IMG/VR virus record: IMGVR_UViG_3300023174_000038
Span: 1 to 64,000 of that record
Source of the DNA: a virus
Strand: one strand, 5' to 3'
DNA length: 64,000 bases
Numbering within the stretch: position 1 is the stretch's first letter; every line of letters starts with the position of its first letter. The notes beneath the pieces were generated by a model. It did no database searches. It worked only from the letters and a program-made list of their open reading frames with translations, and was not told where the DNA came from. Positions 38,276 to 55,045 of this stretch are shown here, piece by piece. The position numbers and the translations under genes are program-made.

Positions 38276-38347
38276 TTTTATTATCATCCTCTAGAGATAG
38301 TATTTATTTGCTTATTAGTTGAGAAATATCACACTTTATTAAATAGG

Positions 38348-38367
38348 AAAGGCTCCTAAGAGCCTTT
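38348..38367 (-). terminator. Rho-independent terminator after the tmRNA coding piece
   Basis: An 8-bp stem AAAGGCTC/GAGCCTTT with TTAG loop (minus), followed by CCTATTT. It is nearly identical to the hairpin at 27945-27966. Confidence 0.88.
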
Positions 38368-38564
38368 ACTGAGTTTCTGTTACGAGGTATGTCTTACCCT
38401 AGGCTGCGTTTAGGCTGCCAATGCGAACTGTGAGTCGTTTGCGTTTACTTTTTTTGCTTCTACGGCCGAGTTCCCCCAACCCTAACGGCTTCTGCTTTGC
38501 CGAGCGCCTAATCTTAACTACTATCCTGTCGGTCGATCCCAAGTCACCCCCATCATAAAAACAC

Positions 38565-38605
38565 AATACCAAAGTAAATTTACACGGAATACCAAAGTAA
38601 ATTTA
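38565..38605 (-). repeat. 18-bp direct repeat inside the tmRNA intervening segment
   Basis: AATACCAAAGTAAATTTA occurs at 38565-38582 and again at 38588-38605, 23 bp apart. It lies wholly in the segment removed during processing. It is A/T-rich and may be a processing signal or a homing footprint. Confidence 0.85.
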
Positions 38606-38681
38606 TGCTCTTATGGTGGAGGTGGGGAGAATTGAACTCCCGTGTCGCCAGTGTTTCCTAAGCAGGTTTACGCTGTTCTTA

Positions 38682-39314
38682 CTATTTAGTCAACCTACCC
38701 CTAGATAGATTGAATAAAGTAATTTTATCATCATCTGGTTTTAAATAAAAGTTAATTTGGGAATTATTATACCAATGTTTACCGTATGCATTACTATTCT
38801 TATTCTTTCTGTTGTCTCTCCATTCCGATGTAGGTATCCATCCGGATGGAATTTCATTTTTGTAGTACATTTTACGATTAACTAATTCAACTGACGATTT
38901 TTCTACACACCAAACTTTTCCAAAATTAGAGTTATTTTCTTTTTGTTGGTGCTTTCTTTCTTTAAAAGTTTTATTTCTCTTTTCCATTGCAGATTGGGTT
39001 TTTGACAACTTACTTGCTCGGGCTTGTTGTTCTTGATTTATCGCAAAATTAGTTTTAGTTTGAACATTTTTAAATGGATTAGGATGTAATTGTCTGCATT
39101 TTTTACCAGCTTCACTTTGTCTAATTTTTACTAATTCTTCTTTAGGACTTAATTTTGCTAAACCCTGCCATGCAACATAATCTTGCCAACGACCATATTC
39201 TTCGTATAACTTGCGATGTGCCTCTGCATGTTCATCAATAGATAATTCTATAAGGTTCCTAGGATCATCTGTCCCGCCTGCGTGTTTAGGAATAATATGG
39301 TGTTTATGGCTCAT
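38682..39314 (-). CDS. HNH homing-type endonuclease
   Basis: A 210-aa protein from ATG 39314 (MSHKHHIIPKHAGGTDDP). The HHIIPKHxGGxDDxxNL...HAEAH pattern is the HNH beta-beta-alpha-metal fold with its catalytic His and metal ligands. The Lys/Asn-rich C-terminal half ends in a DNA-binding-like region (WIPTSEWR, NAYGKHWYNN) reminiscent of phage homing endonucleases with NUMOD-type motifs. Its stop codon directly precedes the tmRNA acceptor piece. A late-type CATAAATAC lies 4 nt before the ATG. It probably spreads itself between phage genomes and may carry the tmRNA along. Confidence 0.85.
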   Translation of the reverse strand: MSHKHHIIPKHAGGTDDPRNLIELSIDEHAEAHRKLYEEYGRWQDYVAWQGLAKLSPKEELVKIRQSEAGKKCRQLHPNPFKNVQTKTNFAINQEQQARASKLSKTQSAMEKRNKTFKERKHQQKENNSNFGKVWCVEKSSVELVNRKMYYKNEIPSGWIPTSEWRDNRKNKNSNAYGKHWYNNSQINFYLKPDDDKITLFNLSRGRLTK

Positions 39315-39381: not shown

Positions 39382-42300
39382 TCAATTGTATTTAGTATTA
39401 AAATACTCTTTTAACCAAGGCCAATCATAACTTAGTCGTAATTTATCTAACTCACCATTGACTGATTCATAGTATTCTACAGCATGTTGAGCACCTTGTA
39501 TACTATATTGGGCATAGTCTCCTTCACCAACTGTTGTCCATACTTTCAATCTGTGTCTACTAATAGCACTATCATCTAATCGTAACTTAATAGCTTCACG
39601 GAAACTAGTGCGCCATGTACTAAACTCATCTGTATTATATTTTGCTACACCTGAATTAATCTCAACAACTTCATGCTCACTATCCAATGTAAAGTCTAGA
39701 CCTTTACCCATATTACCTAATGTAATCTGTTTATTGTATGCAATCATGGCTTGGTGACCATATACTAATCCATTAACAGGGTTACTTGCATAGAAGATAT
39801 AATGTTTAGGTACTTGTAATCTATCAGGTTGCCATGAGAAATCAAACTTACTATTGACTTTTAACTTAGCAAATACAGTAAACATCCAAGATGTTTGACT
39901 AGCAATTGCGGTTGCATGATAGGCAGCAACACGACCATTGACCCCATCAACTCTAACAACACGATTTTTCAGCCCTTTAGTCACGTTCAGTAAGTGTTCG
40001 TAGTTCTCGTCAGCTATGGCTTCACCGTTACTTAGGAAGACTATATCCAGCGGCTTTGACTGTCCCATCTTTGTTGATTTAGCAATATATGGATAATCAT
40101 ACAATTCTTTCTCAACATGATCGTTAGCTTCTTTGGGTACAACAATACGTGTGCCTCCCATATTCGTAATCAATATATTCTTAGATTCAATAGACCACAT
40201 ACTGATTGGTTCATCATTAATGTCTGGTGCGATTAAATTATCACTTGTAGTAAACACAGCATAAGGGAAGTTATAACTATGTTTTTTGAAATTCAAATGT
40301 GTATCAGCATCAGTAACAAAACTAGGGGCAGGCAAACGTTTTACTTTTTGATGCTGATTAAAGTTAATCTTCTCTATATTTTCTAGCTTATCCAAATCTT
40401 CTACAAGAATACGTAATTTGTTTACATTAATAAAGAATGTATCTCCAAACTTCTGTTTATCACTAGGGAATACATGTAACTGCTCCAATGAGAATGGATC
40501 ACATATATAAGTAAAGTCAAAGTTAGTGTAATCACATATTGAACTGCATACCCAAATGTAATGGTCCTTTTTAATGCCCAACTCATATAGCATATTCTTC
40601 AATGTAGTTAAGTAATCAGTTTCATACTTAATTGTATAAACGTTTTCACGTTTAGTCTTGCTTTCAATTAATGAAACAATATCATTAACTCCGTCATTAC
40701 CATAATCAATTAAGTAAACATCATACAAACAGTTACTAGCAACGGCACGTTTTGTTTTTACAAAGTTTAAGTTACTTAGGTGTTCAATAATTTTCACATA
40801 CTTTGTATCTTCCGCAAAGGTTTCTTTATTGACCATAAACGTACTACCCCAATGACTCCATTGTGTTCCAAACACATGAACCATTGTCATTTGCCACGGG
40901 TTAGGATAATAGTTAAAATCAAAGTTAGTGTAATCTAATTCGCTATTCAGTATCCAGCATAGTTCTGTAGTAGATTTATTGATACAGCGATTGATTGTGT
41001 CTACCCAACTGTGTAGATAACGTGTCTTTTGTAATGTAGGGAATTGTAACTTAAGCTGTTCAAATCTATTAGCTGATTCTTTATTACCTTTATCCACAAA
41101 GAAAGTATCAACTTGTTTGAATAACTTAGATAGATATTCTTCATCTAATTTTGTATTCTCAATAAAACTAATATCTCTATAACCTTTTTGCCACATCTTA
41201 CCGTTAACTAAGTAGGTTTGTGTTAACTCACTGTCAGGACTACCAAACGTATTAATATTAAATGCTTGTTCTTTAGTAGGTTTCCAACTAAAATCAAATT
41301 TAGTATAATTAATATTTTTACGTAATGCCCAAAATATTTCATTGCTATGTTGTTCTATTAATGCATCAAGTGTAGTTTCAATGTAATATTGAGGGTATTG
41401 AATAATACTATCTTCTGATAATAGTATATTTTCTAATAATACTATTTCTCCATCATTACCCGGTGTTATAAATTTAGGACCATCTTGCAAGTGAATATCT
41501 TCTAATATTGTACCAAATTGATAGATATAAGGAGGACTATATGGATCTGGGTGCCAACTAAAATCAAATATAGTTTTATCAAAACCTGCAGGTATGATCC
41601 AATTAGTAAAATTTTGTTTAAGTTTTGCTATAGGATAATCCATATATTTGACCTCAGTTGCGCCATTTGCAATATATCTTGGGCCACCTATCTTATCCCA
41701 TGTGTTAGGGAACTGATAGATATATGCAGGCTCAGTACTATCTGGATGCCAACTATAATCAAATTCTTCTATATTATCAGGTATATCCCAATTAGTTTTA
41801 TTAGGCAAATACTTTGATTTAATGATATCCATGTACTTTATGTTTGTATTTTCTGTACAGCCGGGAGCAGTAAACATAGGTCCATTTGTTTTTTGCCATT
41901 GTGTTCCAAATTGATAGAATAAAGGCTCATCATCTATATTTGGATGCCAGCTAAAATCAAACTCACTAGTATCTAGCCCTGCAGGTATAGACCAATGTGT
42001 CATATCTTGTTTAACTTTTGCTATAGGATAGTCTAAGTATTTTGTTTCTGTAGCACCCTCTACTGTAAATTTAGGTCCACCTGTTTGACTCCACGTACTA
42101 GGGAACTGATAGATATATGCAGGTTCTGTATCATCGGGGTGCCAACTCCAATCAAATGACGTTTGGTCTACATTACGTGGGATCAACCAATTTGTAAATC
42201 TCCATGCTACTACTTCTGCTTTAACAGCATCAATATATTTTAATTCTGTTGCACCAGGAACTATATAGCGAGGTCCCCCTGTCTTTTGATGTATAGTACC

Positions 42301-43524
42301 AAATTGATATATGTAAGGTGGGTCATGTGGATTAGGTTCCCAACTAAAATCAAAACTATTCTTTATAACATAAGGGGGTATTTCCCAATTGTCCGTGCAT
42401 GGTTTACGTGTAGCACGTTCTTCCATGTATTTGTATTCAGTTGCTCCTTCAACAACATATTGTATAGATATTTTATCTTCTGGCTTATTCCATTGATTGC
42501 CCCATGCATAGATATAGGGAGGACTCCACGGGTCAGGAACCCATGAATAATTTATCCCATCACTATTTTCTAAATGTTCAAATCGTGTACTGTTAGGTAA
42601 CAGTTTAGCTTTCATTGATTCATCATCAATAAACTTATATTCTGTTGCTCCTGGTACATGATATTCAACAGTTGGCATAATCTCTGCTGGATATTGCGTA
42701 TTACCAAATACATAAATAAATGCAGGTTCACGCGGATCAGGTCTCCAACTAAAATCAAAATTAAACTTATCTATAGAGTTCCATATTACCCACCTATCCC
42801 ATTCAGGTAATACAGCAACTGAGTTATCCATATACTTTCGGTCAGTAGCTCCTACACAATGATACTCTACTGTGGGTTTTAACTCAGCGGATATATATTT
42901 ATTACCCCAAGTATAGATATATGCGGGTTCACGTGGGTCAGGTCTCCAACTAAAATCAAAACTTGATTTATCTACCGCTTGTATTTCTATCCAGTTATCC
43001 CATTCAGGTATTAATTCTACTACCTCAGGCATGTATTTTACATTAGTTGCATCCTTGACATGATATTCTACATAATGTTTAATTTCAGTTGGATAGAATT
43101 TGCAACCCCATTTATATATGTAGGGCGGGTCATGTGGGTTTGGCTCCCAACTAAAATCAAACTTTAATTCATCAATTTTATCTAGCACCACCCAATTAGC
43201 ATTTTTTAAATTCTTTCTGAGTATAGGCTCAACATCAGCACGATATATAATTATGTCGCTATATCGGTGTGAGCATAGCCAAGTGCCACTATCTTTATTT
43301 TGTTTATTAGGCCATACATTGTTATGTTCACTTGTCCAAACTTCGTCATCGGGTAAAAAGTCAAAGTCCCAATCCCAATCAAAATTTGTATAATCACAAT
43401 ATTCATTGATTATCCAAAAATGGTCGGTGGTACATTGTTGTCTAGCATCGGCTAAATCAATTGCATGTTTTTCTCTGGGGTGGGCGTTGGGTTTACTACC
43501 GTAATAAAATACATCTCTAAGCAT
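39382..43524 (-). CDS. Repeat protein with about 14 FDFSW modules and C-terminal glycosyltransferase-like domain
   Basis: A 1380-aa protein. About 14 tandem modules of 60-90 residues carry the core FDFSW-x-PDP-x-x-P-x-YIY-x-FG, then a GATEyKYmD-like end. Early and late copies are more diverged (YTNFDWDWDFDF first; FDFNYYPNPW and FDFTYICDPF late). The last 230 residues (PLDIVFLSNGEAIADENYEH, RVDGVNGRVAAYHAT) resemble the fold start of the glycosyltransferase-like protein encoded at 50931-51884, and contain one more FDFSW copy. The repeats therefore look derived from a piece of that domain. It stands next to radical SAM enzymes. Function unknown; a glycan- or peptide-processing role is inferred. 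Confidence 0.75.
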   Translation of the reverse strand: MLRDVFYYGSKPNAHPREKHAIDLADARQQCTTDHFWIINEYCDYTNFDWDWDFDFLPDDEVWTSEHNNVWPNKQNKDSGTWLCSHRYSDIIIYRADVEPILRKNLKNANWVVLDKIDELKFDFSWEPNPHDPPYIYKWGCKFYPTEIKHYVEYHVKDATNVKYMPEVVELIPEWDNWIEIQAVDKSSFDFSWRPDPREPAYIYTWGNKYISAELKPTVEYHCVGATDRKYMDNSVAVLPEWDRWVIWNSIDKFNFDFSWRPDPREPAFIYVFGNTQYPAEIMPTVEYHVPGATEYKFIDDESMKAKLLPNSTRFEHLENSDGINYSWVPDPWSPPYIYAWGNQWNKPEDKISIQYVVEGATEYKYMEERATRKPCTDNWEIPPYVIKNSFDFSWEPNPHDPPYIYQFGTIHQKTGGPRYIVPGATELKYIDAVKAEVVAWRFTNWLIPRNVDQTSFDWSWHPDDTEPAYIYQFPSTWSQTGGPKFTVEGATETKYLDYPIAKVKQDMTHWSIPAGLDTSEFDFSWHPNIDDEPLFYQFGTQWQKTNGPMFTAPGCTENTNIKYMDIIKSKYLPNKTNWDIPDNIEEFDYSWHPDSTEPAYIYQFPNTWDKIGGPRYIANGATEVKYMDYPIAKLKQNFTNWIIPAGFDKTIFDFSWHPDPYSPPYIYQFGTILEDIHLQDGPKFITPGNDGEIVLLENILLSEDSIIQYPQYYIETTLDALIEQHSNEIFWALRKNINYTKFDFSWKPTKEQAFNINTFGSPDSELTQTYLVNGKMWQKGYRDISFIENTKLDEEYLSKLFKQVDTFFVDKGNKESANRFEQLKLQFPTLQKTRYLHSWVDTINRCINKSTTELCWILNSELDYTNFDFNYYPNPWQMTMVHVFGTQWSHWGSTFMVNKETFAEDTKYVKIIEHLSNLNFVKTKRAVASNCLYDVYLIDYGNDGVNDIVSLIESKTKRENVYTIKYETDYLTTLKNMLYELGIKKDHYIWVCSSICDYTNFDFTYICDPFSLEQLHVFPSDKQKFGDTFFINVNKLRILVEDLDKLENIEKINFNQHQKVKRLPAPSFVTDADTHLNFKKHSYNFPYAVFTTSDNLIAPDINDEPISMWSIESKNILITNMGGTRIVVPKEANDHVEKELYDYPYIAKSTKMGQSKPLDIVFLSNGEAIADENYEHLLNVTKGLKNRVVRVDGVNGRVAAYHATAIASQTSWMFTVFAKLKVNSKFDFSWQPDRLQVPKHYIFYASNPVNGLVYGHQAMIAYNKQITLGNMGKGLDFTLDSEHEVVEINSGVAKYNTDEFSTWRTSFREAIKLRLDDSAISRHRLKVWTTVGEGDYAQYSIQGAQHAVEYYESVNGELDKLRLSYDWPWLKEYFNTKYN

Positions 43525-43542
43525 TATATTACTTAGCTGGAT

Positions 43543-45096
43543 TTATTTGTTATAATTATTTAATATATCAGATAGCCATGGTATATAATTTTCTAATTTA
43601 TGACCTCTAATGTCATCTAACCTACGGGTATCGTCAGCTAGCTTTGGTAACAGATGGCTATTATCTTTAGCAAACATATAGTTGATTAAACCACTATAGC
43701 TATGCCTAAATATATTACCCATTTCTAGTCCATATTTTTCATCTATTTCTTTGTAAAAAAATTCATATGCTTCTCGTATTTGATTTTTTACATTAACGGG
43801 TAGTACTTGTATACTCATGGGAGACGGGCCCTCTAGTACGTGATAGCTAGGCGTTTTTCTAATTCTTTTATAATTTTTTTCTATTAACCATTTAGAAATT
43901 TCTAAAAAATGATATACATTGAATATACTTATAGTAGTAGATATTGTACCATAAATAGATTTAGTTGGATTATTACCTAACACATCTAAATTTTGTTCTA
44001 GTGCATCCCAAGTACTTGGATATCTTAGATAGTATGCCAAATCCTCAATTGCATCTATACTGCATCCTATTCCTACGGATCTGAACTCTTCCCATAAGTT
44101 ATATAGCTTATTTGGTATAGCAAACATATTTGAATTGTAATCCAAATGAACACGATTGCTATGACCCATATCTATAATTTTTTGTAATAATTTAAAATGT
44201 ATTTTATTAATTGTAGGTTCGCCGCCGGTAAAATAATATCGGTCAATATAGGGAATTAGTTTTTCAATTTGATTCCAGAATTCATCCGATTCATACCATT
44301 CAAAATCCGAAGAATCAATGGTATAATTATTATTTTTTTTGATTACATTATACGTTTTTCCCCCATAAAAAGACATAGGAGCTGAGGAAGGCTTTTCTCC
44401 CTCGTATGACATGAAAACAAAATCGTCATACCACAGACTGCTATCGGTCGGGCCGCAATATCTACATTTTAAATTGCATAAATTTCCAAAACGAATATCA
44501 ATATATTTTATTGGAAACTTTTCTATATCTATACTTCCATCATTAGCAGTGTTATCAATGAATCCTGTATGTCCGTATGTATTAATACTGTGTAATCTTT
44601 TACTAGATAAACCGGTGTCTTCTTCTTTCCAACATAAATTACATGACGGATGTTTTTCTCCGCGCAACATACTTGCACGTAATTCTTTAAATACTGTGTT
44701 ATTTCGTGATTGATTTATATCAGTATTTTTAACGTTTAACATTTCTCCGTTCTCTATTAGTTTACCGTACGGGTAGTATATCTGTTGACAACAAATTCTT
44801 AAATCTCCATTTTGTTGTATGCCAGTAGAGACCCATGGTATTGGGCAAAACGTTGAATTTTTTGGAAGGTCCTGCATTTGAGGATTTATTTGATTCAGTC
44901 TTGTTTTTGCTAGCTCAATTGAAGCTTCTGAGCAATGAGGATTTTTCATACCTGCTACTATAACTTCTGATTCAACATCATGTGTTATCATAGCTGTTAT
45001 TAATTCAGGAAAATCTGTAATTGTAATAAGTTCAACTCGTTCATTAGAATCAAAACAGTTGTGAAGTTTATTAAACCAATATTCACTGGTATTCAT
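43543..45096 (-). CDS. Radical SAM enzyme with N-terminal twitch/SPASM-like domain (1)
   Basis: A 517-aa protein. Residues 1-75 are a helical N-terminal segment (ELITAMITHDVESEVIVAGM) similar in plan to that of the 774-aa enzyme. A Cys-rich twitch/SPASM-like domain follows (FCPIPWVSTGIQQNGDLRIC at 83-102, CNLCW near 152). The radical SAM core starts with CNLKCRYC (207-214), the [4Fe-4S] ligand motif. The N-terminal twitch order matches the family NCBI names N-terminal twitch rSAM. It cleaves SAM to a 5'-deoxyadenosyl radical; the substrate is unknown. It overlaps the next gene by 4 nt. Confidence 0.88.
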   Translation of the reverse strand: MNTSEYWFNKLHNCFDSNERVELITITDFPELITAMITHDVESEVIVAGMKNPHCSEASIELAKTRLNQINPQMQDLPKNSTFCPIPWVSTGIQQNGDLRICCQQIYYPYGKLIENGEMLNVKNTDINQSRNNTVFKELRASMLRGEKHPSCNLCWKEEDTGLSSKRLHSINTYGHTGFIDNTANDGSIDIEKFPIKYIDIRFGNLCNLKCRYCGPTDSSLWYDDFVFMSYEGEKPSSAPMSFYGGKTYNVIKKNNNYTIDSSDFEWYESDEFWNQIEKLIPYIDRYYFTGGEPTINKIHFKLLQKIIDMGHSNRVHLDYNSNMFAIPNKLYNLWEEFRSVGIGCSIDAIEDLAYYLRYPSTWDALEQNLDVLGNNPTKSIYGTISTTISIFNVYHFLEISKWLIEKNYKRIRKTPSYHVLEGPSPMSIQVLPVNVKNQIREAYEFFYKEIDEKYGLEMGNIFRHSYSGLINYMFAKDNSHLLPKLADDTRRLDDIRGHKLENYIPWLSDILNNYNK

Positions 45097-46403
45097 AGCC
45101 GTTCTCCTGTATGATGTTGTAACTCAGGAAAGGTTTTTTTGAAATCAGTATTTCTTTCTTTATCTAGTTTAATCAAATAACCCATATACCAGTTAACATC
45201 AAAGTCAACAGTTTCTTCTAATGCATTTTTAATTATACTTAACCTGTTATCAAATACATTTTTACAATCTTCCTGTAATTTTTGTGAAGATTTTAATGGT
45301 AATAATGTATTGTAATACCATTGCTCATACTCGGAAATTTTAATACGTAAATGTTCTTTCCATTCTTTACTAGCGGACCTTATTGAAAAGTACTCAGGAT
45401 ATAGTAAAACAATATTATGATAATCAGATTCCCAAATACTAGTGTTGTAAAACGTATGCGGGAAGAGGTCATTTACTAAAAAATATTCTAGTATATCTTT
45501 TATCCGATGTATATTCATCAGACTCCAGGTTGGAGTAATTACCCAATGACGATTACTTCCTGTTAAATTATCTTTTAATAGTTTAATATTTTTCAATATT
45601 TTATTTGCATCAGCTGGATAGCGTATGTAAAATAATCTATCCACATCAACTTCATCTAAACTTACTAATACACGTAATTTTTCCATGTGTTTCCAGTAAT
45701 CTAAAACGTCTGTTGATTTATAAGTCATTGTGGTTAAGTTAGTACTGTACACAAATTCTATTTCTCCTAATCTGTTTGATTCTTTAATATATTCTAGTAT
45801 TTCATAATGTTCAGGATGAAGTAAAGGTTCTCCACCAGCAAAATATATTTCTTCAACATTGTTTACTTGCGATTTTATAGTTTCAATGAAGCTTTCTTTA
45901 TGATTTTTACTGTTATTAAATTGATCCTCAGTATAATTAGGATCAATTGCCTTCATAATAGGTACCCATGAACTACTATACGTAGGATGGCACACTGTAC
46001 ATGCTAGATTACATAAATTGTTAAATCTGAAATCCCATTTCAAAAATTTCATACTACTCATTGTTCCATCTATAGCAGTATTATCTTCAATCAGTTCTTC
46101 ATAAAAATCTTTAAACCTATCATTAAAGCTTCGGCGTATTGTTGACGTACTTCCCCATTCTTCTTCTTTGTAGCATCTTGTACAATGTTTTGATTTTGTA
46201 TCGTTTAATATATCTCGTCTTAATTCTTTATAATTTTCATTGTTCCAAATATCTTGTATATTTTCTTTATACAAATTCCCCATACTGCCACCTAAACTGA
46301 TACAGCAGGGAAGTATATCTCCTGTTGGAACATTATGTATATGCATAAACGGAGCCATGCAAAATACTTTGCTTTCTTTAATGTGAAATGTTTTTTTAGT
46401 CAT
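45093..46403 (-). CDS. Radical SAM enzyme with N-terminal twitch/SPASM-like domain (2)
   Basis: A 436-aa protein from ATG 46403 (MTKKTFHIKESKVFCMAPFM); an earlier start would lie deep in the upstream gene. Twitch-type cysteines FCMAPF and ILPCC lie near 15-34, with GNLYKENIQDIWNNENYKEL, the classic SPASM linker, and CTRCYKEEEW at 74-83. The radical SAM core motif is CNLACTVC (131-138), with GGEP following (YFAGGEPLLH). It overlaps both neighbours by 4-8 nt. Substrate unknown; probably works in series with the four other rSAM enzymes. Confidence 0.88.
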   Translation of the reverse strand: MTKKTFHIKESKVFCMAPFMHIHNVPTGDILPCCISLGGSMGNLYKENIQDIWNNENYKELRRDILNDTKSKHCTRCYKEEEWGSTSTIRRSFNDRFKDFYEELIEDNTAIDGTMSSMKFLKWDFRFNNLCNLACTVCHPTYSSSWVPIMKAIDPNYTEDQFNNSKNHKESFIETIKSQVNNVEEIYFAGGEPLLHPEHYEILEYIKESNRLGEIEFVYSTNLTTMTYKSTDVLDYWKHMEKLRVLVSLDEVDVDRLFYIRYPADANKILKNIKLLKDNLTGSNRHWVITPTWSLMNIHRIKDILEYFLVNDLFPHTFYNTSIWESDYHNIVLLYPEYFSIRSASKEWKEHLRIKISEYEQWYYNTLLPLKSSQKLQEDCKNVFDNRLSIIKNALEETVDFDVNWYMGYLIKLDKERNTDFKKTFPELQHHTGERL

Positions 46404-48720
46404 TTGAAATTTTAAAAACTTTTTTTGATTTATTTCTATACTGTTCGTGTACCGTTTCTTTTGTTTGAATTTCAGATGATATCCAATCTTTAATATTACC
46501 TGTTTCTTCAAAAACACCATCAAAACTATAATTAACCTTTTCTCTTTCCAATCGGTATGTTTCTTTTAAGTGCGGAGTTACTGTATCATGTACAAATTTA
46601 TGTGTCAACTTTATATTATAGTTGCCATTAGAGTCTATCTCAAACGTTAGATCAGAGTCGTACATTCTAGAAATATAATCACCAAACGTATTAAAGTCAG
46701 TTTCTGCATTGCACTTAAATGTAAATTTAAAAGCTCCAAAGTACGTGTGTATAACATATAGCAAAGCAAAATATTCGTTAGTTATACTAGCAAAAAACGT
46801 GTTATCTGTGTTTCTATTCAAGTTAACATATTGGTCATATGTTATATAGTCTGTTACATTTTTAGTACCAGTAAAAGTATAAAAATCTTGTATATTGTGA
46901 TATCGTTGAGCATTAATCATAGCAGAATCAGAATAATAATTGATTATATCTAACCACACATGGTTTAATTTTATTCTTAAAAATCTATGCATAGCAGTAT
47001 TATTATCAGTATGCCATGAGTTAAATAAATTGTTATCGTAGGGTTTCTCAATCCAATTCATTCCATAATCTTTCCAATTAGTATCCCAGTGTGCAATACT
47101 TTGGGGCGGTGATGCTCCAAAGCCTGGACTTATATTATCAATCCAATTTCTACAATTGAATAGTAATTGAAAACTATGTAAGCAGTCGATTGGTTCTTCT
47201 GTGGGGAATCCTACCATCCAATTTATGTGAACAAACATCCCCGACGCTTTAGAATCTTTAAGATTATTTTCTACTTCCCATATGTCAATCTTCTTACGCA
47301 TATCATTAAGAACTTTTTGACTTCCTGATTCTACCCCATAGCTCAGACATGTGCATCCACTATCTGTAACCTTTTGTAAGAATTCAGCAGTCATTCTTCC
47401 ATCACATCTTGCGTAAGAGTTCCAATGTATTTTAATATTTCTTTCTAATATTAGATCAACCAGTTTTTGGAAATTTTTTAAATTTCCATTAACTAAACTA
47501 TCAACAAACCAAAATCTACTAACACCTAAATTATTTTGTTGGTATTCTATTTCATCTACTACTCTTTCCGGAGTCATTGATCTAAATTTCCAGAAATGTG
47601 TTTCAGCGCAAAAACTACAGTCTGCTACACACCCTCTAGACGTTTCAATGCTAACCCCGTAGCTGTGTTCGTAGTTGCTAAAATTGTAATCAGAATAGTC
47701 CGGATACGGGTATACGTCTAAATCTAATTTACTATTTACCGTCCCTATAGTTTGACTGCTACCAATATCGGTATCATCAGTTAACTCTTCCAAAAATTTT
47801 ACAAAATTTTCTTCAGCCTCTCCTATAAATTTGTAATTTATAAGAGTTGTTAATAAATGTCCGTTGCTAATAGCACCGGGACCTCCTACCACGATACATA
47901 CATCGGGCATCATATATCTTAATTCCCGTATTAGATATAGACTAGCATGGATGTTTGTATCATATAAACTAAATCCAACGACCTTGGGATTAGATTGAAG
48001 AATATTAAATAATGTTCTATCAAATACGTCCTTCAAGTCGGGCAATATAAATTCACTAAAACTTTCCGAGCTATTCCAATAAAAATATCTATTTGATGCC
48101 CAGTAGTCAATTCCGGTGGTATCATGAAGATGATGGAAAGATTCTATATTAAGATCGTACACTCTAACACTATAATCTAAATGTCTCAATAATCCTGTTA
48201 GTTTGGCGAGGTTGTAAGGTGGAAATAGTTTTCCCCAAGCTGGCGCTACTACAAGTCCAATTCTAAATTTAGAAGTGTCTGCCCATTCAACTTCTTTATG
48301 GATATATCCGGAATCTACGGTAGGTTGTTCATCTCCTAAATGTGATATTGCATGACTTAGATTTGAATCTTTTTTAAGTATATGATTTAGGATAATTTGA
48401 TCCCGATCACCGACAACCATCTTTGTTGCCTCTTCCTCTTGTTTTGCAATATCATCCGACATTAGTGTTATTCTTTGTCGTCTGTCTCTTTCACTCCAAA
48501 ATCTAGGATTATCAATTTCGGGAAATCTTAATATTGCAATTTCAATAAATGCTTTATCAATTTTAGAACTAACCGCGGCAGCCTCTACGACAGACGCCAT
48601 TGTGTCCCATTTGATCATATTTTCTAATATATAAGTTGGGCATCCTCGTGTGGATGCAACATTAATTCTTTCTAAATGATCCGCATCTTTTAGTCTTTCT
48701 TCAAAGTTTATTTTTTTCAT
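46396..48720 (-). CDS. B12-binding radical SAM enzyme
   Basis: A 774-aa protein with three parts. A helical N-terminal region (1-130, LENMIKWDTMASVVEAAAVS) may be protein-binding. A Rossmann-like cobalamin-binding-type domain follows at about 150-320 (LVVAPAWGKLFPPYNLAKL, then VVGFSLYDTNIHASLYL and IVVGGPGAIS), lacking the DxHxxG base-off motif. A radical SAM core begins ETSRGCVADCSFC (364-371) and includes NWMVGFPTEEP. Such BchE-type enzymes perform C-methylation, ring closure or other radical chemistry. The last 200 residues are unique. It overlaps the next rSAM gene. Confidence 0.88.
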   Translation of the reverse strand: MKKINFEERLKDADHLERINVASTRGCPTYILENMIKWDTMASVVEAAAVSSKIDKAFIEIAILRFPEIDNPRFWSERDRRQRITLMSDDIAKQEEEATKMVVGDRDQIILNHILKKDSNLSHAISHLGDEQPTVDSGYIHKEVEWADTSKFRIGLVVAPAWGKLFPPYNLAKLTGLLRHLDYSVRVYDLNIESFHHLHDTTGIDYWASNRYFYWNSSESFSEFILPDLKDVFDRTLFNILQSNPKVVGFSLYDTNIHASLYLIRELRYMMPDVCIVVGGPGAISNGHLLTTLINYKFIGEAEENFVKFLEELTDDTDIGSSQTIGTVNSKLDLDVYPYPDYSDYNFSNYEHSYGVSIETSRGCVADCSFCAETHFWKFRSMTPERVVDEIEYQQNNLGVSRFWFVDSLVNGNLKNFQKLVDLILERNIKIHWNSYARCDGRMTAEFLQKVTDSGCTCLSYGVESGSQKVLNDMRKKIDIWEVENNLKDSKASGMFVHINWMVGFPTEEPIDCLHSFQLLFNCRNWIDNISPGFGASPPQSIAHWDTNWKDYGMNWIEKPYDNNLFNSWHTDNNTAMHRFLRIKLNHVWLDIINYYSDSAMINAQRYHNIQDFYTFTGTKNVTDYITYDQYVNLNRNTDNTFFASITNEYFALLYVIHTYFGAFKFTFKCNAETDFNTFGDYISRMYDSDLTFEIDSNGNYNIKLTHKFVHDTVTPHLKETYRLEREKVNYSFDGVFEETGNIKDWISSEIQTKETVHEQYRNKSKKVFKISND

Positions 48721-49973
48721 TATGTTTGATTTTTAAATAATTCAAGTTGTTGCTCAGTATACTGAACTACTTCTCCTGGATTTTGCATCCCTCGTATTGG
48801 AACAAGACTTACAACACCTTTAACTCTTCCATTTGCACCCGGTCTGTTTAATAAATCTAAATTTAATATTTTCTCTTTTAATTTTAATGCTCTATCTATA
48901 TATTTAGGAGGAGCCATTAATTTTACTTCTAACCAATGGTCATCGTCATGTTCATCAAAATGTTCGCATATTACTTTAATATTTTTAACAAATCTATCTT
49001 CATCATTGTATTCTGTTAAGCCGTCAAAATGAGCACTTAATAATATGCTATTCATATATTTTGCTAGTTCCCCCCAGTATTTATGATCTCTGGTTCCATT
49101 ACTAGTTACCATAGTCCATTGGTTTTTACCTTTAAGATACTTAATAAAATCTAAAAAGTTAGGATGTAACGTAGGCTCACCGCCGCCAAAGTTCCATCTG
49201 ATGGTTTTATTATGGGCCCATTCTTCAATAATCTTATCAGCAGTGCTTATCAATAAGTCATAATCTTTATGGGTATCAGTTTTATTATGCACTCCTGGCC
49301 AGCAATAGGAACAATCATAATTACATTTTCTGCTAAGATCCCATAAAATTTGATAGGGCATAGAATAATTCAATTCAACTGCAACTGGATCACTTATATT
49401 ATCAACATAATCATTTTCAGTACGGTCTCGCCCTTGCCATCCTTCATTGTTAACAGCAAGCGTTGTCCTATGCATTTTAGTTTTGACTTTGCTTAATACA
49501 ACATCAGCACCGCAGCTACATGAATTCCACGGACATACAAACCACTCTTTAGACAAAGAAAAACTTTCATTTATATTGCCCAAAAACCCAGGTATATTAT
49601 TTTTATTTTCTTCTGTTACTGGGATTATTTTTTTATATGCCTTGCCATTCTTTTTAAATTCTGATTCTAATTTTAAAAATTCTTCGCCTGTATGCCACCA
49701 CTCAGATGGAATATTTTTTCCAAATTTATCAATCTTAGAGAATAACAATTCTTTCCAATTGTCATGATTAAAACGGTCTATGAATGAACTAGCTGTATTA
49801 CATACCCAAATGTTGCCGTCAAAGTCAATATATAAATTTTGAACTCCGGCGCTACATTTCCAATTTTGCCAATAATTATATCTGTTTGCAATTGCTTCGT
49901 CAACCGAAACTCTTATAAATTTTCCATCATCATCATATATTCTTAATTGCTTGTTGTTGTTAATATTATCCAT
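48720..49973 (-). CDS. Radical SAM enzyme with twitch-like cysteines before the core (3)
   Basis: A 417-aa protein. Near the N-terminus NWKCSAGVQNLYIDFDGNIW (residues 38-57) and later FLGNINESF, CPWN and CSCGAD (130-156) match the C-terminal auxiliary domain of the neighbouring 319-aa enzyme. The radical SAM core follows with CNYDCSYC (217-224), and GGGEPTLHP is the SAM-binding motif. The auxiliary domain is thus before the core here and after it in the neighbour. It overlaps the 774-aa gene at a single base. Substrate unknown. Confidence 0.88.
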   Translation of the reverse strand: MDNINNNKQLRIYDDDGKFIRVSVDEAIANRYNYWQNWKCSAGVQNLYIDFDGNIWVCNTASSFIDRFNHDNWKELLFSKIDKFGKNIPSEWWHTGEEFLKLESEFKKNGKAYKKIIPVTEENKNNIPGFLGNINESFSLSKEWFVCPWNSCSCGADVVLSKVKTKMHRTTLAVNNEGWQGRDRTENDYVDNISDPVAVELNYSMPYQILWDLSRKCNYDCSYCWPGVHNKTDTHKDYDLLISTADKIIEEWAHNKTIRWNFGGGEPTLHPNFLDFIKYLKGKNQWTMVTSNGTRDHKYWGELAKYMNSILLSAHFDGLTEYNDEDRFVKNIKVICEHFDEHDDDHWLEVKLMAPPKYIDRALKLKEKILNLDLLNRPGANGRVKGVVSLVPIRGMQNPGEVVQYTEQQLELFKNQT

Positions 49974-49977
49974 TATG

Positions 49978-50937
49978 TTACTTTATATCTAATTCTTTGG
50001 TGCTCATTATGTCAAAATTACAATGACACATAGTTTTATTACATAATACAGGTGTTTTTGGTACTTCAAAGGCTTCAAATATATTACCAATCTTTCCACC
50101 TACTCTACACCAACCACGATATATGTCGCCACCTAAGTCTACAATAATCTGCTCTGCACCGGCATAACAATTCCACCCACTCCAATCATTAGTCTTTTGA
50201 CTGATAAATCTATGTGCGCTAGAAACAACTTCTGTATTATCTTCTTTAATCATCTTCATGGCACCACGATAGTAATCAAATGATTTGGTATACTTAATGT
50301 GTTTAACAATCAACTCATGTTGTTTATCAAATATCTTCTTTTGAAACTCATCATAATCATACAATGTATCACCAAAATCATGTATCAACGGCTGTAATGC
50401 CATACTGATATTGCCTATACCCTTAACTTTATTAGCTACAGCATAGCAAAAATCAAACTTATCTGGACTCATCATAATGTTTACATGTGTACGTACATCA
50501 TCATGCAACAACTTTACTACTTCTACAAAGTGGTCAGCTTCTGCAAACTCAGGGTGAAAGCTTAAACATACATGGTCAAAGTATTGTTTATTATCTTCCC
50601 ACCAACGTAATGTTCTACTGCCGTTACTAATCAATCCTACTTTAGCACCTAATTCGGTGCAATGTTTACATATCTCTACAAAATGTTTGTATAGTGTTAC
50701 TTCACCACCGGTTAGTTCAAAGTAAACTTTACGCGGAGCAACTTGTTCTACTACACGTGTGATAAATTCTTTAACTTTATCTAGTTCAGGCCATTTAATA
50801 TCACCTGAATGAAGATTCTCTGGACAATAACTACATTCAAAGTTACAAGTATTACCCATACACCAATTGACTACAAACCATTCTTCATGTACAGGGTTAC
50901 TGTGTACTAACTTAATATAATTGTGTTCCATTACCAT
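49978..50937 (-). CDS. Radical SAM enzyme with C-terminal auxiliary cysteine domain (4)
   Basis: A 319-aa protein. The core motif CNFECSYC is at 31-38, followed by ELTGGEVTLYKHF. The C-terminal auxiliary domain (WNCYAGAEQIIVDLGGDIY, then GKIGNIFEAF and CNKTMCHC) likely binds a second iron-sulphur cluster. It overlaps the glycosyltransferase-like gene upstream by 7 nt. The adjacent enzyme carries the same auxiliary domain at the other end. Substrate unknown; it belongs to the rSAM/glycosyltransferase block. Confidence 0.88.
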   Translation of the reverse strand: MVMEHNYIKLVHSNPVHEEWFVVNWCMGNTCNFECSYCPENLHSGDIKWPELDKVKEFITRVVEQVAPRKVYFELTGGEVTLYKHFVEICKHCTELGAKVGLISNGSRTLRWWEDNKQYFDHVCLSFHPEFAEADHFVEVVKLLHDDVRTHVNIMMSPDKFDFCYAVANKVKGIGNISMALQPLIHDFGDTLYDYDEFQKKIFDKQHELIVKHIKYTKSFDYYRGAMKMIKEDNTEVVSSAHRFISQKTNDWSGWNCYAGAEQIIVDLGGDIYRGWCRVGGKIGNIFEAFEVPKTPVLCNKTMCHCNFDIMSTKELDIK

Positions 50938-51884
50938 CCTTCTATTTTTCTAATAACATCCATCTCTTTAACTAACGGTCCGAGATTATATTTATCAGAG
51001 CTATAGTGACGCTTGAAGAACTTGCTTTGTCCCCCGTCAAAGTGATGCATTGGCAAATCAAGTTTATCAGTTAATGCCGCACCTAATAATGCTGATTCAC
51101 GATCAGGATCTCTATGTAAATGTTCTTCCCATAATACAGTATAGTTATCAAACCATTGTACATTAGCAGGATCCCACTCAGTAAGCATAGTCATATATGT
51201 TCCAAGGCGGGCTCCATAGATAGCCCACTCACCGTTCTCTATATCACGACCGATGTTGTGCCAAATAGTTAAATTGTTTAAGTTACGACTAGCAACAGTT
51301 TCTTTTAGTGCATCAACTGTAGGTTTTGATCCACGGTCAAGAACCATTTTTACTCCTTCACGGAATCCAGCTCGCCACGCTTGAAACGGAGTATAATTAG
51401 GATAAGTAGTAGAGTAGCAGTCATACATTGTCCAATATAAGTTGTCTTTGCTGTCTAAACAAAAGTCAGCAATTCGTGAAACATCACCTTCAGTTTGATG
51501 CTCGTGTGTTTTCATTTCACGCACATAAGTTTTTGTCCAACTACTCATTCCACCATTGCCATAGCGTAGTCCATTGATGTTATTAATGGCTTTCCAACGA
51601 TATTGTGCTATCTTGTAGTTAGGATCTTTGTCAGTGAAGTCTAATTGTAGGTTGAAGAAACTTTCATCTGGCATGTTGTCACCGTCAATCAAAATGAAAC
51701 GTTCTGTGTCGCTTGCTTCACCTGCGGCTTTATGTGCGGCATCAGATCCCTTAACACTATCAACACGTTTGGCCCAAGGCACCATGTTTTTAATTTTGAG
51801 CCAAAATTCTTCTTTTTGTGGTTCATCATAACTGAGATAGATGCAGTCTAAGTCTGCTACATCAATAATATCATCAGAGTTCAT
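50931..51884 (-). CDS. Glycosyltransferase-like protein
   Basis: A 317-aa protein. IYLSYDEPQKEEFWLKIKNM, VDSVKGSDAAHKAAGEA and LIDGDNMPD (a DxD-like metal site) give the outline of a GT-A fold. The C-terminal half has WRAGFREGVKMVL, also seen at the end of the 1380-aa protein (WRTSFREAIKL). I recall similar proteins in cyanophages, usually annotated as hypothetical or glycosyltransferase. It may glycosylate a virion protein, DNA or a small molecule processed by the rSAM enzymes. Confidence 0.72.
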   Translation of the reverse strand: MNSDDIIDVADLDCIYLSYDEPQKEEFWLKIKNMVPWAKRVDSVKGSDAAHKAAGEASDTERFILIDGDNMPDESFFNLQLDFTDKDPNYKIAQYRWKAINNINGLRYGNGGMSSWTKTYVREMKTHEHQTEGDVSRIADFCLDSKDNLYWTMYDCYSTTYPNYTPFQAWRAGFREGVKMVLDRGSKPTVDALKETVASRNLNNLTIWHNIGRDIENGEWAIYGARLGTYMTMLTEWDPANVQWFDNYTVLWEEHLHRDPDRESALLGAALTDKLDLPMHHFDGGQSKFFKRHYSSDKYNLGPLVKEMDVIRKIEGW

Positions 51885-52203
51885 ATGTTTTTAATTTCCA
51901 TTTAGTTATATTATTGTAAGAGCTATCTACAACGATGCTCAAATCTTCATTAGCACAACTTGTACCTTCATCATCATGTATTAACTTAGATACAACGGAA
52001 CCGGCTATAGCGCCTGCTACTTTACCATCTACTACTCTAAGATCAGGACGACCTTGAGCATAGGTACTTGAGTCTATTACAACATAATTACCTTCTGGTT
52101 TTTCACATGTATAAAATAATACATTACCACGTTCATCATAATACAATCTGAACTCAGGCTTAATGATGGGAGGTGCTTCCCAAATTACAAATTCTTCCAT
52201 CAA
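51874..52203 (-). CDS. Hypothetical phage protein, 109 aa
   Basis: A 109-aa protein (MMEEFVIWEAPPIIKPEFRL) with beta-type segments (LRVVDGKVAGAIAG, WKLKTYEL). No catalytic motif or family named; I associate the pattern with cyanophage-like myoviruses but cannot confirm it. It overlaps the glycosyltransferase-like genes on both sides by 4-11 nt. Confidence 0.75.
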   Translation of the reverse strand: MMEEFVIWEAPPIIKPEFRLYYDERGNVLFYTCEKPEGNYVVIDSSTYAQGRPDLRVVDGKVAGAIAGSVVSKLIHDDEGTSCANEDLSIVVDSSYNNITKWKLKTYEL

Positions 52204-52946
52204 TAACTTTCTAATATTTTATCACTAAACGATTTAATGTGATAGTGAAACGGGTAAAGTTGTGGGTAAGTATTTACTCTAATCATTTTAGGTAATACTT
52301 CGTATACTAACGTGTTAGTCCAATCTTCACTGGGTATACCATTAACATATTGTTTCATATGAATCATACTCATTTCATTAAAATCAGGCAATGTAGTTTT
52401 TTCTACACCTACTATATGACATGCTATAGCATATACCCAATCAGTTGATACTTCTTCGTTTGGGTTACATTTTAATATGGCTTTATATTCTTCCCAATTT
52501 TCAAAAATATCTCTTACTACTGTATAAAACAGCTTAGCCGTTTCTGACTTTTTAAAGTATGTTATGCTATTATAAGTATCTGGTAGCATATTCTCATCAA
52601 TAAACTTTCTATATACTCTGCAATCAGATAGTTCACCTTTAAAATTTCTAATAGTAGTGGATACTACTACATCATTTATACTTAGTATATCCCACCAATG
52701 TTCTATGCTTCGGGGGATAATCATATCTGCTTCTAGTTTGATGGTTTCATCGTACGGGCTTGCTTCATATACTTGCCAATCATTTGTATAACCACCCGTA
52801 TCACCATGTGGCAACATGTCACTGGTGATAATAGTTACATTAGCATTGGGCATAACTTTTTTAATGCTTAACTCTAATGCTTTTGCACAATTAGTATAAC
52901 TAACTTTCTCAGTATCTTGTGCCATAATTACAAAACCTCTAGTCAT
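52200..52946 (-). CDS. Glycosyltransferase-like protein (GT-A type)
   Basis: A 248-aa protein. ASPYDETIKLEADMIIPR corresponds to the strand holding the nucleotide-sugar DxD motif, here changed to EAD. Neighbour 52943-53746 has DFSPYDETILLDTDYM with a proper DTD, so the two are paralogues and this one may have altered metal binding. VYRKFIDENMLPDTYNSITY is the acceptor side. Substrate unknown. Overlaps both neighbours by 4 nt. Confidence 0.7.
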   Translation of the reverse strand: MTRGFVIMAQDTEKVSYTNCAKALELSIKKVMPNANVTIITSDMLPHGDTGGYTNDWQVYEASPYDETIKLEADMIIPRSIEHWWDILSINDVVVSTTIRNFKGELSDCRVYRKFIDENMLPDTYNSITYFKKSETAKLFYTVVRDIFENWEEYKAILKCNPNEEVSTDWVYAIACHIVGVEKTTLPDFNEMSMIHMKQYVNGIPSEDWTNTLVYEVLPKMIRVNTYPQLYPFHYHIKSFSDKILESY

Positions 52947-53746
52947 GCTATTAGCTCCATAAAGTTTTCTTTATTCATAACATGAAAATCCATATTTTTA
53001 ATTGTTATATACTCTTTTCGTATTTTACCACGTTGCCAGTTGTCATACATAACAGTATATTCTGTGTTAAACACACTATCATTATCTCTATATATTGATG
53101 TGTTTTTACCAACATGTACTAAATTCCAGGGTATAATATCACGAGGACTATCACTATGCCCATTTGCTATACGTAAGGCAAGTGTTAGTGCGTAATCATT
53201 ACGATATACTCCACCAACAAAGCTATGTATATCACAGTAGTGGTCATAGTTATTTTGTACCATTTCTAAACATTCAAATATTTGTTTAGCACGATTGGAT
53301 TTTTTAAATGTAACAACGGTAGCCCACAAAGTTTTAAAACTATATGAACTTAATACTTCCTGTGCTACTCCTGGTTGCATTAAGTAACTAGTAGTATCAT
53401 GGCAACAGAAGTCATCATATATATTAAAAATTCTTAATAATTTATCTGAGTTAACCATATAATCTGTGTCTAGCAGAATCGTTTCATCATACGGGCTAAA
53501 GTCATATGCTTGATAACGTCCCTTGTTAATCCAAATATTATGTTCACGTATGTTGTTTTTATCAGCAGTGGTAACTATAACTTTGTCAAAGGTATATGAT
53601 TCTGTTGTTGGTAATGATTCTTCATCTGTAACTAATGTAACTGGAAGATTTAAGAAATGGTTAATGCGTTTAGCAGTGGCTACTGCCATGTCATAGTAAT
53701 TAAACTTGGGAGAGTTAAACGCAAATAATATTGCACCTTTGCTCAT
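52943..53746 (-). CDS. Glycosyltransferase-like protein with DTD motif
   Basis: A 267-aa protein of the GT-A type. The N-terminus (GAILFAFNSPKFNYYDMAV) is the first Rossmann-like strand. DFSPYDETILLDTDYM carries the DxD metal-binding motif. The C-terminal region VYRNDYALTLALRIANGHS includes a catalytic-base-type Asp. It is a paralogue of the 248-aa protein. Target unknown; likely modifies a phage structure or host glycan. Confidence 0.75.
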   Translation of the reverse strand: MSKGAILFAFNSPKFNYYDMAVATAKRINHFLNLPVTLVTDEESLPTTESYTFDKVIVTTADKNNIREHNIWINKGRYQAYDFSPYDETILLDTDYMVNSDKLLRIFNIYDDFCCHDTTSYLMQPGVAQEVLSSYSFKTLWATVVTFKKSNRAKQIFECLEMVQNNYDHYCDIHSFVGGVYRNDYALTLALRIANGHSDSPRDIIPWNLVHVGKNTSIYRDNDSVFNTEYTVMYDNWQRGKIRKEYITIKNMDFHVMNKENFMELIA

Positions 53747-54048
53747 CGTACAATCTCAATCTCTTTCCATTCTTTATACCAGTCAAGCATAACTTTACTA
53801 TATGTTTCTTTTAATACGTTTAGCAATTGTGCGCGGTTGACCTGTACAGGGTTATTAAAGTTATCAATTAATACAACAAAATTATCATCTAATGCATTTA
53901 AAAATGCAATAAGTTCAGGACTAGCTTTCCATAGTCCACCTTGTTCGGCAATAATAAATTTGCCATCGTATTTGTCTTTTAGTTGCGCTTTTGCGCTATT
54001 GTGATTGAAGCGGGCTTTAGCCTCGCTAATTAAGGTTTTGGTATCCAT
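53743..54048 (-). CDS. Conserved T4-type small phage protein, 101 aa
   Basis: A 101-aa protein (MDTKTLISEAKARFNHNSAK). SEAKARFNHNSAKAQLKDKY and WKASPELIAFLNALDDNFVV are patterns I recognise from many T4-like aquatic myoviruses, but its function is unknown. It overlaps the glycosyltransferase gene by 4 nt. An AAATAC late-type motif and an AGGAG ribosome site lie upstream. Confidence 0.75.
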   Translation of the reverse strand: MDTKTLISEAKARFNHNSAKAQLKDKYDGKFIIAEQGGLWKASPELIAFLNALDDNFVVLIDNFNNPVQVNRAQLLNVLKETYSKVMLDWYKEWKEIEIVR

Positions 54049-54094: not shown

Positions 54095-55045
54095 TTAACT
54101 ACCTGTTACAGTACCAGTAATACTAGGTGTTCCCCACGTGTTGGCAATATATGTAACTTCGGGTGGGCGTATAGTTACTGTAGTAGCTGAACCGGTTGCT
54201 ACAGTAAGACCATTTGGGATTTCATCCCAAACTGTGTATATAGTAACAATACTACCTACGTCACCATTACTACCTTGAGTACCATTTGTTTTAACAAAGA
54301 TATTAATGTTAGTTGATAAGTAACCAGAAGGGCCTGTACTAGCAGTTTGATAGAATACATTAGCATTAGCAGTTGACCAATTATAATATCCACTATTAGT
54401 TGATATAGTAGGGCTAGATCCTCCGCCACCTACTCTAGTTACTCCGTTATAGCTTGTACCAGCAATACTTGCAGCACCCGAAGTAGGTGAGCTTAGAACC
54501 ACAGTACCCACATTGCTTGCTAAGTTATTTAATAGCAAATTAATTCCTGAACCAGCAGGATGCGAACATGTAATTGCTAATTGTCCACCTGAGTTAAAGA
54601 AATAACGTGCGGCATCACCGTTAGCAAACGATACAGTATGAGTAAATGTGATTGCGTTAAGCCATGTTGCACCATAAGTTGCGGTATTTGCACTTGTTCC
54701 GCTTTGCGATACAGCATTTAATCTATTTGTGTAAATTGTTTGTAAATTAGTAACAACATTAGCATTATATGTAATTGTATTTCCAGAGGCCGGGGCTGTT
54801 ACACTAGTAATACTTGAACTTTGATGACTAGCTGAGTTGGATGTTCTATTAATTAAATTAGCCCAACTAGTAGCAGTAACTGTGTCACCCGTAGCTACAT
54901 TTGCTAACGCTGTTTGACCATAACCTGCACCACCACTACCTGTAGCCCATACTGTGTTTAATACATTAGCTGTGCTGCCTGCGGCTGCACCCACTAAATT
55001 ATTATAATCACTAGCTTGAATTGTTCCGTATTGTGCGTAGCTCAT
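54095..55045 (-). CDS. Tail/fibre-type structural protein, 316 aa
   Basis: A 316-aa beta-rich protein starting MSYAQYGTIQASDYNNLVGA. The Gly/Ala/Ser/Thr/Asn composition, absence of signal peptide and DYNNLV...WANLIN modules are typical of T4-like tail or baseplate-attached proteins. It lies 3 nt after the next structural gene. Specific role unknown. Confidence 0.75.
   Translation of the reverse strand: MSYAQYGTIQASDYNNLVGAAAGSTANVLNTVWATGSGGAGYGQTALANVATGDTVTATSWANLINRTSNSASHQSSSITSVTAPASGNTITYNANVVTNLQTIYTNRLNAVSQSGTSANTATYGATWLNAITFTHTVSFANGDAARYFFNSGGQLAITCSHPAGSGINLLLNNLASNVGTVVLSSPTSGAASIAGTSYNGVTRVGGGGSSPTISTNSGYYNWSTANANVFYQTASTGPSGYLSTNINIFVKTNGTQGSNGDVGSIVTIYTVWDEIPNGLTVATGSATTVTIRPPEVTYIANTWGTPSITGTVTGS

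Follow-up and report, generated by a model that had tools for sequence, protein, structure and literature searches.

The window analysed here is the whole 64,000-nucleotide (nt) stretch at positions 1 to 64,000 of the IMG/VR virus record IMGVR_UViG_3300023174_000038 (348,701 bp). On its minus strand, at 43543-50937, five consecutive genes for radical S-adenosylmethionine (rSAM) enzymes lie in one tight operon, downstream of three glycosyltransferase (GT)-like genes. These five, rSAM1 to rSAM5, make up the exchangeable centre of an island that is conserved in large aquatic phages and bracketed by proteins of predicted glycosyltransferase fold. The minus-strand gene run in the window reads p101, GTa, GTb, p109, GTdxd, rSAM1-5 and then a long repeat gene, FDFSW. 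The rSAM genes are:

rSAM1, 49978-50937, minus strand: rSAM enzyme with C-terminal auxiliary cysteines; Pfam 44.5 bits; CxxxCxxC at 31-38
rSAM2, 48720-49973, minus strand: rSAM enzyme with N-terminal cysteines; Pfam 50.5 bits; CxxxCxxC at 217-224
rSAM3, 46396-48720, minus strand: B12-binding rSAM enzyme; Pfam Radical_SAM and B12-binding both above cut-off
rSAM4, 45093-46403, minus strand: rSAM enzyme with N-terminal SPASM/twitch domain; NF033640 307.8 bits
rSAM5, 43543-45096, minus strand: rSAM enzyme with N-terminal SPASM/twitch domain; NF033640 348.7 bits

All five open reading frames (ORFs) are intact, and each protein scores above the Pfam Radical_SAM cut-off and contains a CxxxCxxC motif, in line with an earlier, sequence-only reading of this DNA. 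That reading had also assigned auxiliary cysteine domains to four of the enzymes and a B12-type architecture to the fifth. This holds for rSAM3, the B12 enzyme, and for rSAM4 and rSAM5, which carry SPASM matches; rSAM1 and rSAM2 have extra cysteines, show no SPASM match and could not be assigned to a characterised family. By score, NCBIfam NF033640 (‘twitch domain-containing radical SAM’, N_Twi_rSAM; curated cut-off 170 bits) includes rSAM4 (307.8 bits) and rSAM5 (348.7 bits); rSAM2 reaches just 38.8 bits, and neither rSAM1 nor rSAM3 scores above the cut-off. In a 30-row paralogue alignment the twitch rSAM cysteines C22, C41, C81, C84, C138, C142 and C145 are invariant or nearly so. rSAM3 exceeds both of its Pfam cut-offs (B12-binding, 35.6 against 32.1; Radical_SAM, 62.8 against 29.5), and no family of known reaction matches it above cut-off (best, TIGR03975, 118 against 281.85 bits). 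Its nearest PDB sequence is AprD4, an aminoglycoside-sugar enzyme (E 2.7e-6), which may be a weak hint towards sugar chemistry.

Between neighbouring genes of the operon there are overlaps of 1-11 nt or gaps of at most 18 nt, with rSAM4 taken from the ATG at 46403, its most likely start. The earlier description of all genes as overlapping was too strict, as 4 nt separate rSAM1 from rSAM2 and 18 nt precede FDFSW; its remark that no obvious small precursor peptide is visible in the window is borne out for the operon, where these gaps leave no space for such a gene. The ratio of nonsynonymous to synonymous substitution rates (dN/dS) against the closest relative (L005, B12 rSAM 97% identical) is 0.02-0.09 for rSAM1-5. 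This places the five genes under purifying selection and, together with the intact motifs, disposes of the idea that inactive cysteine motifs mark a decaying cluster. The cluster is neither a chance assembly nor in decay, and its enzymes look functional.

Which rSAM enzymes occupy this position nevertheless changes between close relatives. We aligned the window by blastn with six relatives, five of which carry other cassettes between GTdxd and FDFSW, the genes that anchor the cassette on its two sides. The breaks in homology define one element:

Exchangeable cassette, 43535-50931 (upper edge 50931 or 49990-49993), no strand assigned: segment bounded by blastn homology breaks

DNA homology runs continuously through the upstream block to the cassette edge, which lies at the GTdxd stop (50931) in one of the five relatives with other cassettes and at the end of rSAM1 (49990-49993) in the remaining four; rSAM1 is thus common to the window and these four. 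All five regain homology at 43535, which is 11 nt ahead of FDFSW. A short 70% stretch within the B12 rSAM is the exception, seen in one relative. In contig 027782_002738, GTdxd and the last 500 residues of FDFSW are each 96% identical to the window, whereas its cassette holds eight rSAMs against five, of which one, rSAM1 by DNA alignment, is common at 60% identity or more. Because homology breaks this sharply among near-identical anchors, cassettes are swapped whole or nearly so between close relatives. The five enzymes had been expected to co-occur as a unit; relatives with near-identical anchors hold other cassettes instead, which rules out a single conserved pathway made of these five.

The genes that stay in place around the cassette are, from the upstream border of the island:

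fib316, 54095-55045, minus strand: fibre- or virion-type protein by sequence character; upstream island border, part of the core and not of the cassette
p101, 53743-54048, minus strand: small conserved core gene
GTa, 52943-53746, minus strand: GT8-like glycosyltransferase by predicted fold
GTb, 52200-52946, minus strand: GTa paralogue, E72-x-D74 invariant in the alignment
p109, 51874-52200, minus strand: small conserved core gene
GTdxd, 50931-51884, minus strand: 5' anchor, GT-A-like, homologous to the FDFSW C-terminus
FDFSW protein, 39382-43524, minus strand: 3' anchor; N-terminal tandem repeats of ~66 amino acids, three C-terminal GT-A-like modules

The link to glycosyltransferases drawn by the sequence-only reading is real, and the three GT-like genes it named are present; p109 sits among them as a fourth, small conserved gene. 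An AlphaFold2 model of GTa (mean predicted local distance difference test score, pLDDT, 90.4) matches glycogenin (Z 16.9, root-mean-square deviation (rmsd) 3.7 over 206 aligned residues) and LgtC (Z 15.1), and both aspartates of D93-T-D95 are invariant in a 24-row alignment. By predicted fold and DxD motif, GTa is a probable GT8-like glycosyltransferase. GTb is homologous to GTa (BLASTP E 5e-7). GTdxd carries an invariant D67-G-D69-N70 at a mean column identity of 87% and has a homologue in the GT-A-like C-terminal part of FDFSW (E 2e-11). Searching the PDB by sequence with profiles of GTa, GTb and GTdxd gave no credible match; fold comparison alone gave one. For fib316 and p101 no PHROG match was found.

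The model of the FDFSW C-terminus (690 amino acids, pLDDT 86.5) contains three GT-A-like modules (Z ~10-11.7, rmsd 2.5-3.4, 123-142 residues), whose best fold matches are glycosyltransferases and nucleotidyltransferases. The N-terminal repeats are aromatic-rich and number 6-30. Because their motif recurs within the C-terminal modules, the repeat may be a duplicated half-module. FDFSW is present in 74 viral loci, whereas a search for it in isolated phages (50,697 phage records) gave none; a first, non-exhaustive scan of cellular genomes returned nothing, and contig L205, from a second scan, carries it.

With GTdxd as query, we found 417 viral stretches that encode this gene and read the best 80 (77-97% identical). 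The contigs are metagenomic, often fragments and in some cases near-duplicates; genes were counted with home-made hidden Markov models, and cassette spans above 20 kb were incompletely read. Most of the 80 loci show the order fib206-fib393-fib316-p101-GTa-GTb-p109-GTdxd. GTa, GTb and p109 are exactly in place in 75, and one extra predicted ORF intervenes in 3 more; p109 lies immediately upstream of GTdxd in 75, p101 occupies the same position in 74, and fib316 directly precedes it in 72. Wherever at least 2.5 kb of sequence follows GTdxd, at least one rSAM gene is found there (72 of 72 loci), and in 66 it is the next gene. Both anchors are captured on 27 contigs, with constant order and orientation in all 27, at a distance of 7.4-25.5 kb and with 1-12 rSAM genes between them.

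The shortest cassette is that of the window and its close relative, with five rSAMs and nothing else. A carbamoyltransferase is found in 63 of the 74 FDFSW loci, and other cassettes also hold genes for a DegT aminotransferase, an epimerase, a UDP-sugar dehydrogenase, an NTP-transferase, and GatZ-like, methyltransferase, SGNH-like and amidinotransferase-like proteins (the SGNH label reflects sequence character and the amidinotransferase label homology to a gene of phage CP220, neither coming from Pfam hits). Clustering at 50% identity divides the 261 twitch rSAMs of the 80 loci into 40 groups; within the island such rSAMs stand up to ten in a row, and two of nine related records reach 19-20 rSAM matches. 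By hydropathy, a crude method, none of 359 cassette proteins reached the threshold for a transmembrane stretch, and neither a flippase nor a polymerase was apparent in the cassettes.

Across these loci, the constant genes resemble transferases plus a GT-A-like scaffold, and the variable ones resemble enzymes that act on sugar nucleotides or tailor sugars, with rSAMs predominating. Starting from this gene content and synteny, the swapping, the predicted GT-A and GT8 folds, the intact motifs and the purifying selection, we infer the product, the rSAM reactions, the acceptor and the biological role, with sequence, gene context and fold prediction as the basis. The product had been left as a peptide, a sugar or a nucleobase, of which sugar is the best fit. 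We consider the chances about even that the island is a polymorphic, phage-encoded glycan locus with rSAM-tailored sugars and probably a virion protein as acceptor. The fixed flanks (p101-GTa-GTb-p109-GTdxd upstream and FDFSW downstream) would supply transfer and scaffold functions, and the cassette the sugar-tailoring enzymes, here five rSAMs alone. In the cytoplasm, GTa, GTb and GTdxd would assemble a glycan, drawing on nucleotide sugars of host origin or made by phage genes located elsewhere. Its carbons could be deoxygenated, oxidised, epimerised or decarboxylated by the twitch/SPASM rSAMs, and the B12 rSAM could methylate or dehydrate it, while FDFSW would hold the acceptor or the growing glycan. 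Recombination in the conserved flanks would swap the cassette and in this way alter the glycan, probably at a fast pace. The absence of transmembrane stretches speaks against lipid-linked O-antigen export and for a cytoplasmic acceptor, either a virion protein or DNA; since the island sits behind fibre-type structural genes, the most likely one would be a virion protein from the genes just upstream, such as a fibre. More tentatively, and somewhat short of an even chance, we propose a previously undescribed system in which 1-12 rSAMs between a GT block and a GT-A-like scaffold make a lineage-specific, non-standard virion glycan and are swapped whole.

Several observations weigh against a virion glycan. 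No rSAM family match names a sugar substrate, and the window cassette contains no sugar-biosynthesis gene besides the flanking GTs. Twitch/SPASM rSAMs often have peptides as their substrate, and bacterial relatives of the twitch enzymes occur in mixed gene contexts (by eye, with a PqqD-like neighbour in one case), so that sugar chemistry is not established for this family. The FDFSW modules lack a DxD at the usual strand end, where NSELD, SSVCD and FAKLK are conserved instead (42 sequences). The connection to a virion protein is drawn from gene order only.

The same data bear on three competing readings, which we rank behind the virion glycan. First among them, the cassette product might go to the host, either altering its surface polysaccharide against rival phages or, over a long infection, being secreted as a secondary metabolite. 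This is how clusters of carbamoyltransferase, epimerase and GT genes in cyanophages have been interpreted (PMC7824862). Variation among close relatives matches surface variation, and carbamoyltransferase and amidinotransferase-like genes are known in secondary metabolism too; however, with no flippase, polymerase or lipid-linked transferase seen among the cassette proteins and an island that prolongs a structural-gene operon, we regard this destination as unlikely. DNA hypermodification, in which rSAM and GT enzymes would decorate phage nucleobases and thereby evade restriction, appears more doubtful still: the island lies in the structural region, away from replication genes, its gene sets with carbamoyltransferase, SGNH and DegT are of a glycan type, and the cassette showed no pathway dedicated to hydroxymethylated bases, even though DNA is a common target of phage GTs and the record encodes a thymidylate synthase and a QueE-like rSAM. 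Least probable is a direct, RiPP-like (ribosomally synthesised and post-translationally modified peptide) modification of backbone or side chains in a virion protein or FDFSW, with the GTs as a separate step, for despite the peptide substrates of many twitch/SPASM rSAMs and the aromatic-rich repeats of FDFSW, the operon leaves no room for a precursor gene. FDFSW, earlier suggested as the substrate, is built of several GT-A-like modules and does not follow the rSAM set: its C-terminus stays near-identical while the number of rSAMs goes from five to eight and a single one is common to both sets, and cassettes with more rSAMs do not come with more FDFSW repeats (rho -0.31, p 0.17, n=21).

Further rSAM genes and neighbouring features were recorded along the way. 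A sixth, B12-type rSAM at record positions 182392-183861 (L012; region 182392-191016) adjoins a fatty-acid desaturase gene, and a cytochrome P450 lies close by. The seventh, QueE-like by sequence character, lies at 267498-268346 of the record (L016:14498-15346), has an unusual cysteine spacing and is possibly linked to deazaguanine DNA chemistry. Outside the island, rSAM genes are densely clustered once more in two related phage records (G006, 284-298 kb; G008, 4-18 kb). Contigs L194, L195, L197, L200, L201, L205 and L218, filed under metagenome-assembled genomes of Rickettsiales, Rhodobacteraceae, Verrucomicrobia, Pelagibacter and Betaproteobacteria, carry the phage island and are therefore probably mis-binned phage DNA. 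Bacterial contigs L257, L233 and L207 (Elusimicrobia, Bacteriovoracaceae and an unclassified bacterium) cluster 8-12 rSAM genes of the same families. As a guide to function, bacterial twitch-rSAM neighbourhoods were set aside, being too mixed and, for several ‘bacterial’ contigs, phage island. Just downstream of FDFSW, the window encodes a permuted phage transfer-messenger RNA (tmRNA; 38319-38717, minus strand; Rfam beta_tmRNA 91 bits; tag ANDSQFALAA), and tmRNAs with differing tags are predicted there in about half of 50 related loci; the betaproteobacterial type may serve as a lead to the host. In two relatives a tRNA-Pyl (anticodon CTA; ARAGORN) adjoins the tmRNA (L044, 14684-14758; L087, 15094-15168). 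An Asn/Thr/Ser-rich secreted-type repeat protein (37145-38287, minus strand) lies downstream of the island and occurs in 7 FDFSW loci. Promoter and terminator scans stayed at chance level, and the T4-type late promoter TATAAATA occurs 3 times in the window against 14 expected, which is uninformative.

The island is a large reservoir of uncharacterised radical enzymes, and the tie of rSAM modules to one conserved GT locus across many jumbo phage contigs makes substrate and product testable. Should the product coat the virion, phages would have in it a surface trait that diversifies, and in the island a surface-variation system driven by radical chemistry.

The remark that large rSAM clusters are unusual in phages is half right. 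Campylobacter phages CP220 and CPt10 have 11-12 rSAM genes and an exchanged module with five rSAMs and an amidinotransferase each (PMC2853527), and the T4-like ocean genome TARA_ERS488813_N000010 has 12, interpreted as Fe-S metabolism (PMC5332604); the latter, also an rSAM-rich T4-like aquatic phage, was compared by rSAM count and description only. The CP220/CPt10 module is the nearest precedent, in the same style with other flanks. In both cases a tight five-rSAM block is replaced by an unrelated block in a close relative. The island amidinotransferase and rSAM_c6/c8 profiles match the CP220 module (E ~1e-30 and 1e-18), and alongside it the CP220 record has two nucleotide-diphospho-sugar transferase genes at its end. 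By contrast, the p101, GTa, GTb, p109, GTdxd and FDFSW anchors have no match in CP220 60-100 kb, the amidinotransferase is absent from the window cassette (a homologue occurs in some island relatives), and NF033640-like twitch rSAMs are not the best match there; the precedent comprises two described phages with smaller, Firehammervirus genomes. These swap modules were left without a function in 2010 (PMC2853527), and we found no later explanation in the literature searched.

Cyanophage clusters of lipopolysaccharide or capsular type (P-SSM2, S-SSM6a; PMC7824862) share epimerases, GTs and carbamoyltransferases, with cupins in addition, and are likewise polymorphic between relatives; the island differs in being rSAM-dominated, in its fixed GT and FDFSW anchors and in having no membrane components seen. 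A related-sounding jumbo lineage, Moraphage, likened by description only, has core GTs, with no mention of any rSAM (PMC12619734). Within NF033640, the subfamily of rSAM4 and rSAM5, the family model names no reaction. Bacterial capsule and O-antigen loci exchange a polymorphic middle between conserved flanks. The island has the same layout, but is phage-encoded, lies inside a structural operon and has no membrane export genes seen. New relative to these systems are the fixed GT/FDFSW anchors, the hundreds of GTdxd loci, of which dozens were read, the very high rSAM counts and the GT-A-like FDFSW protein.

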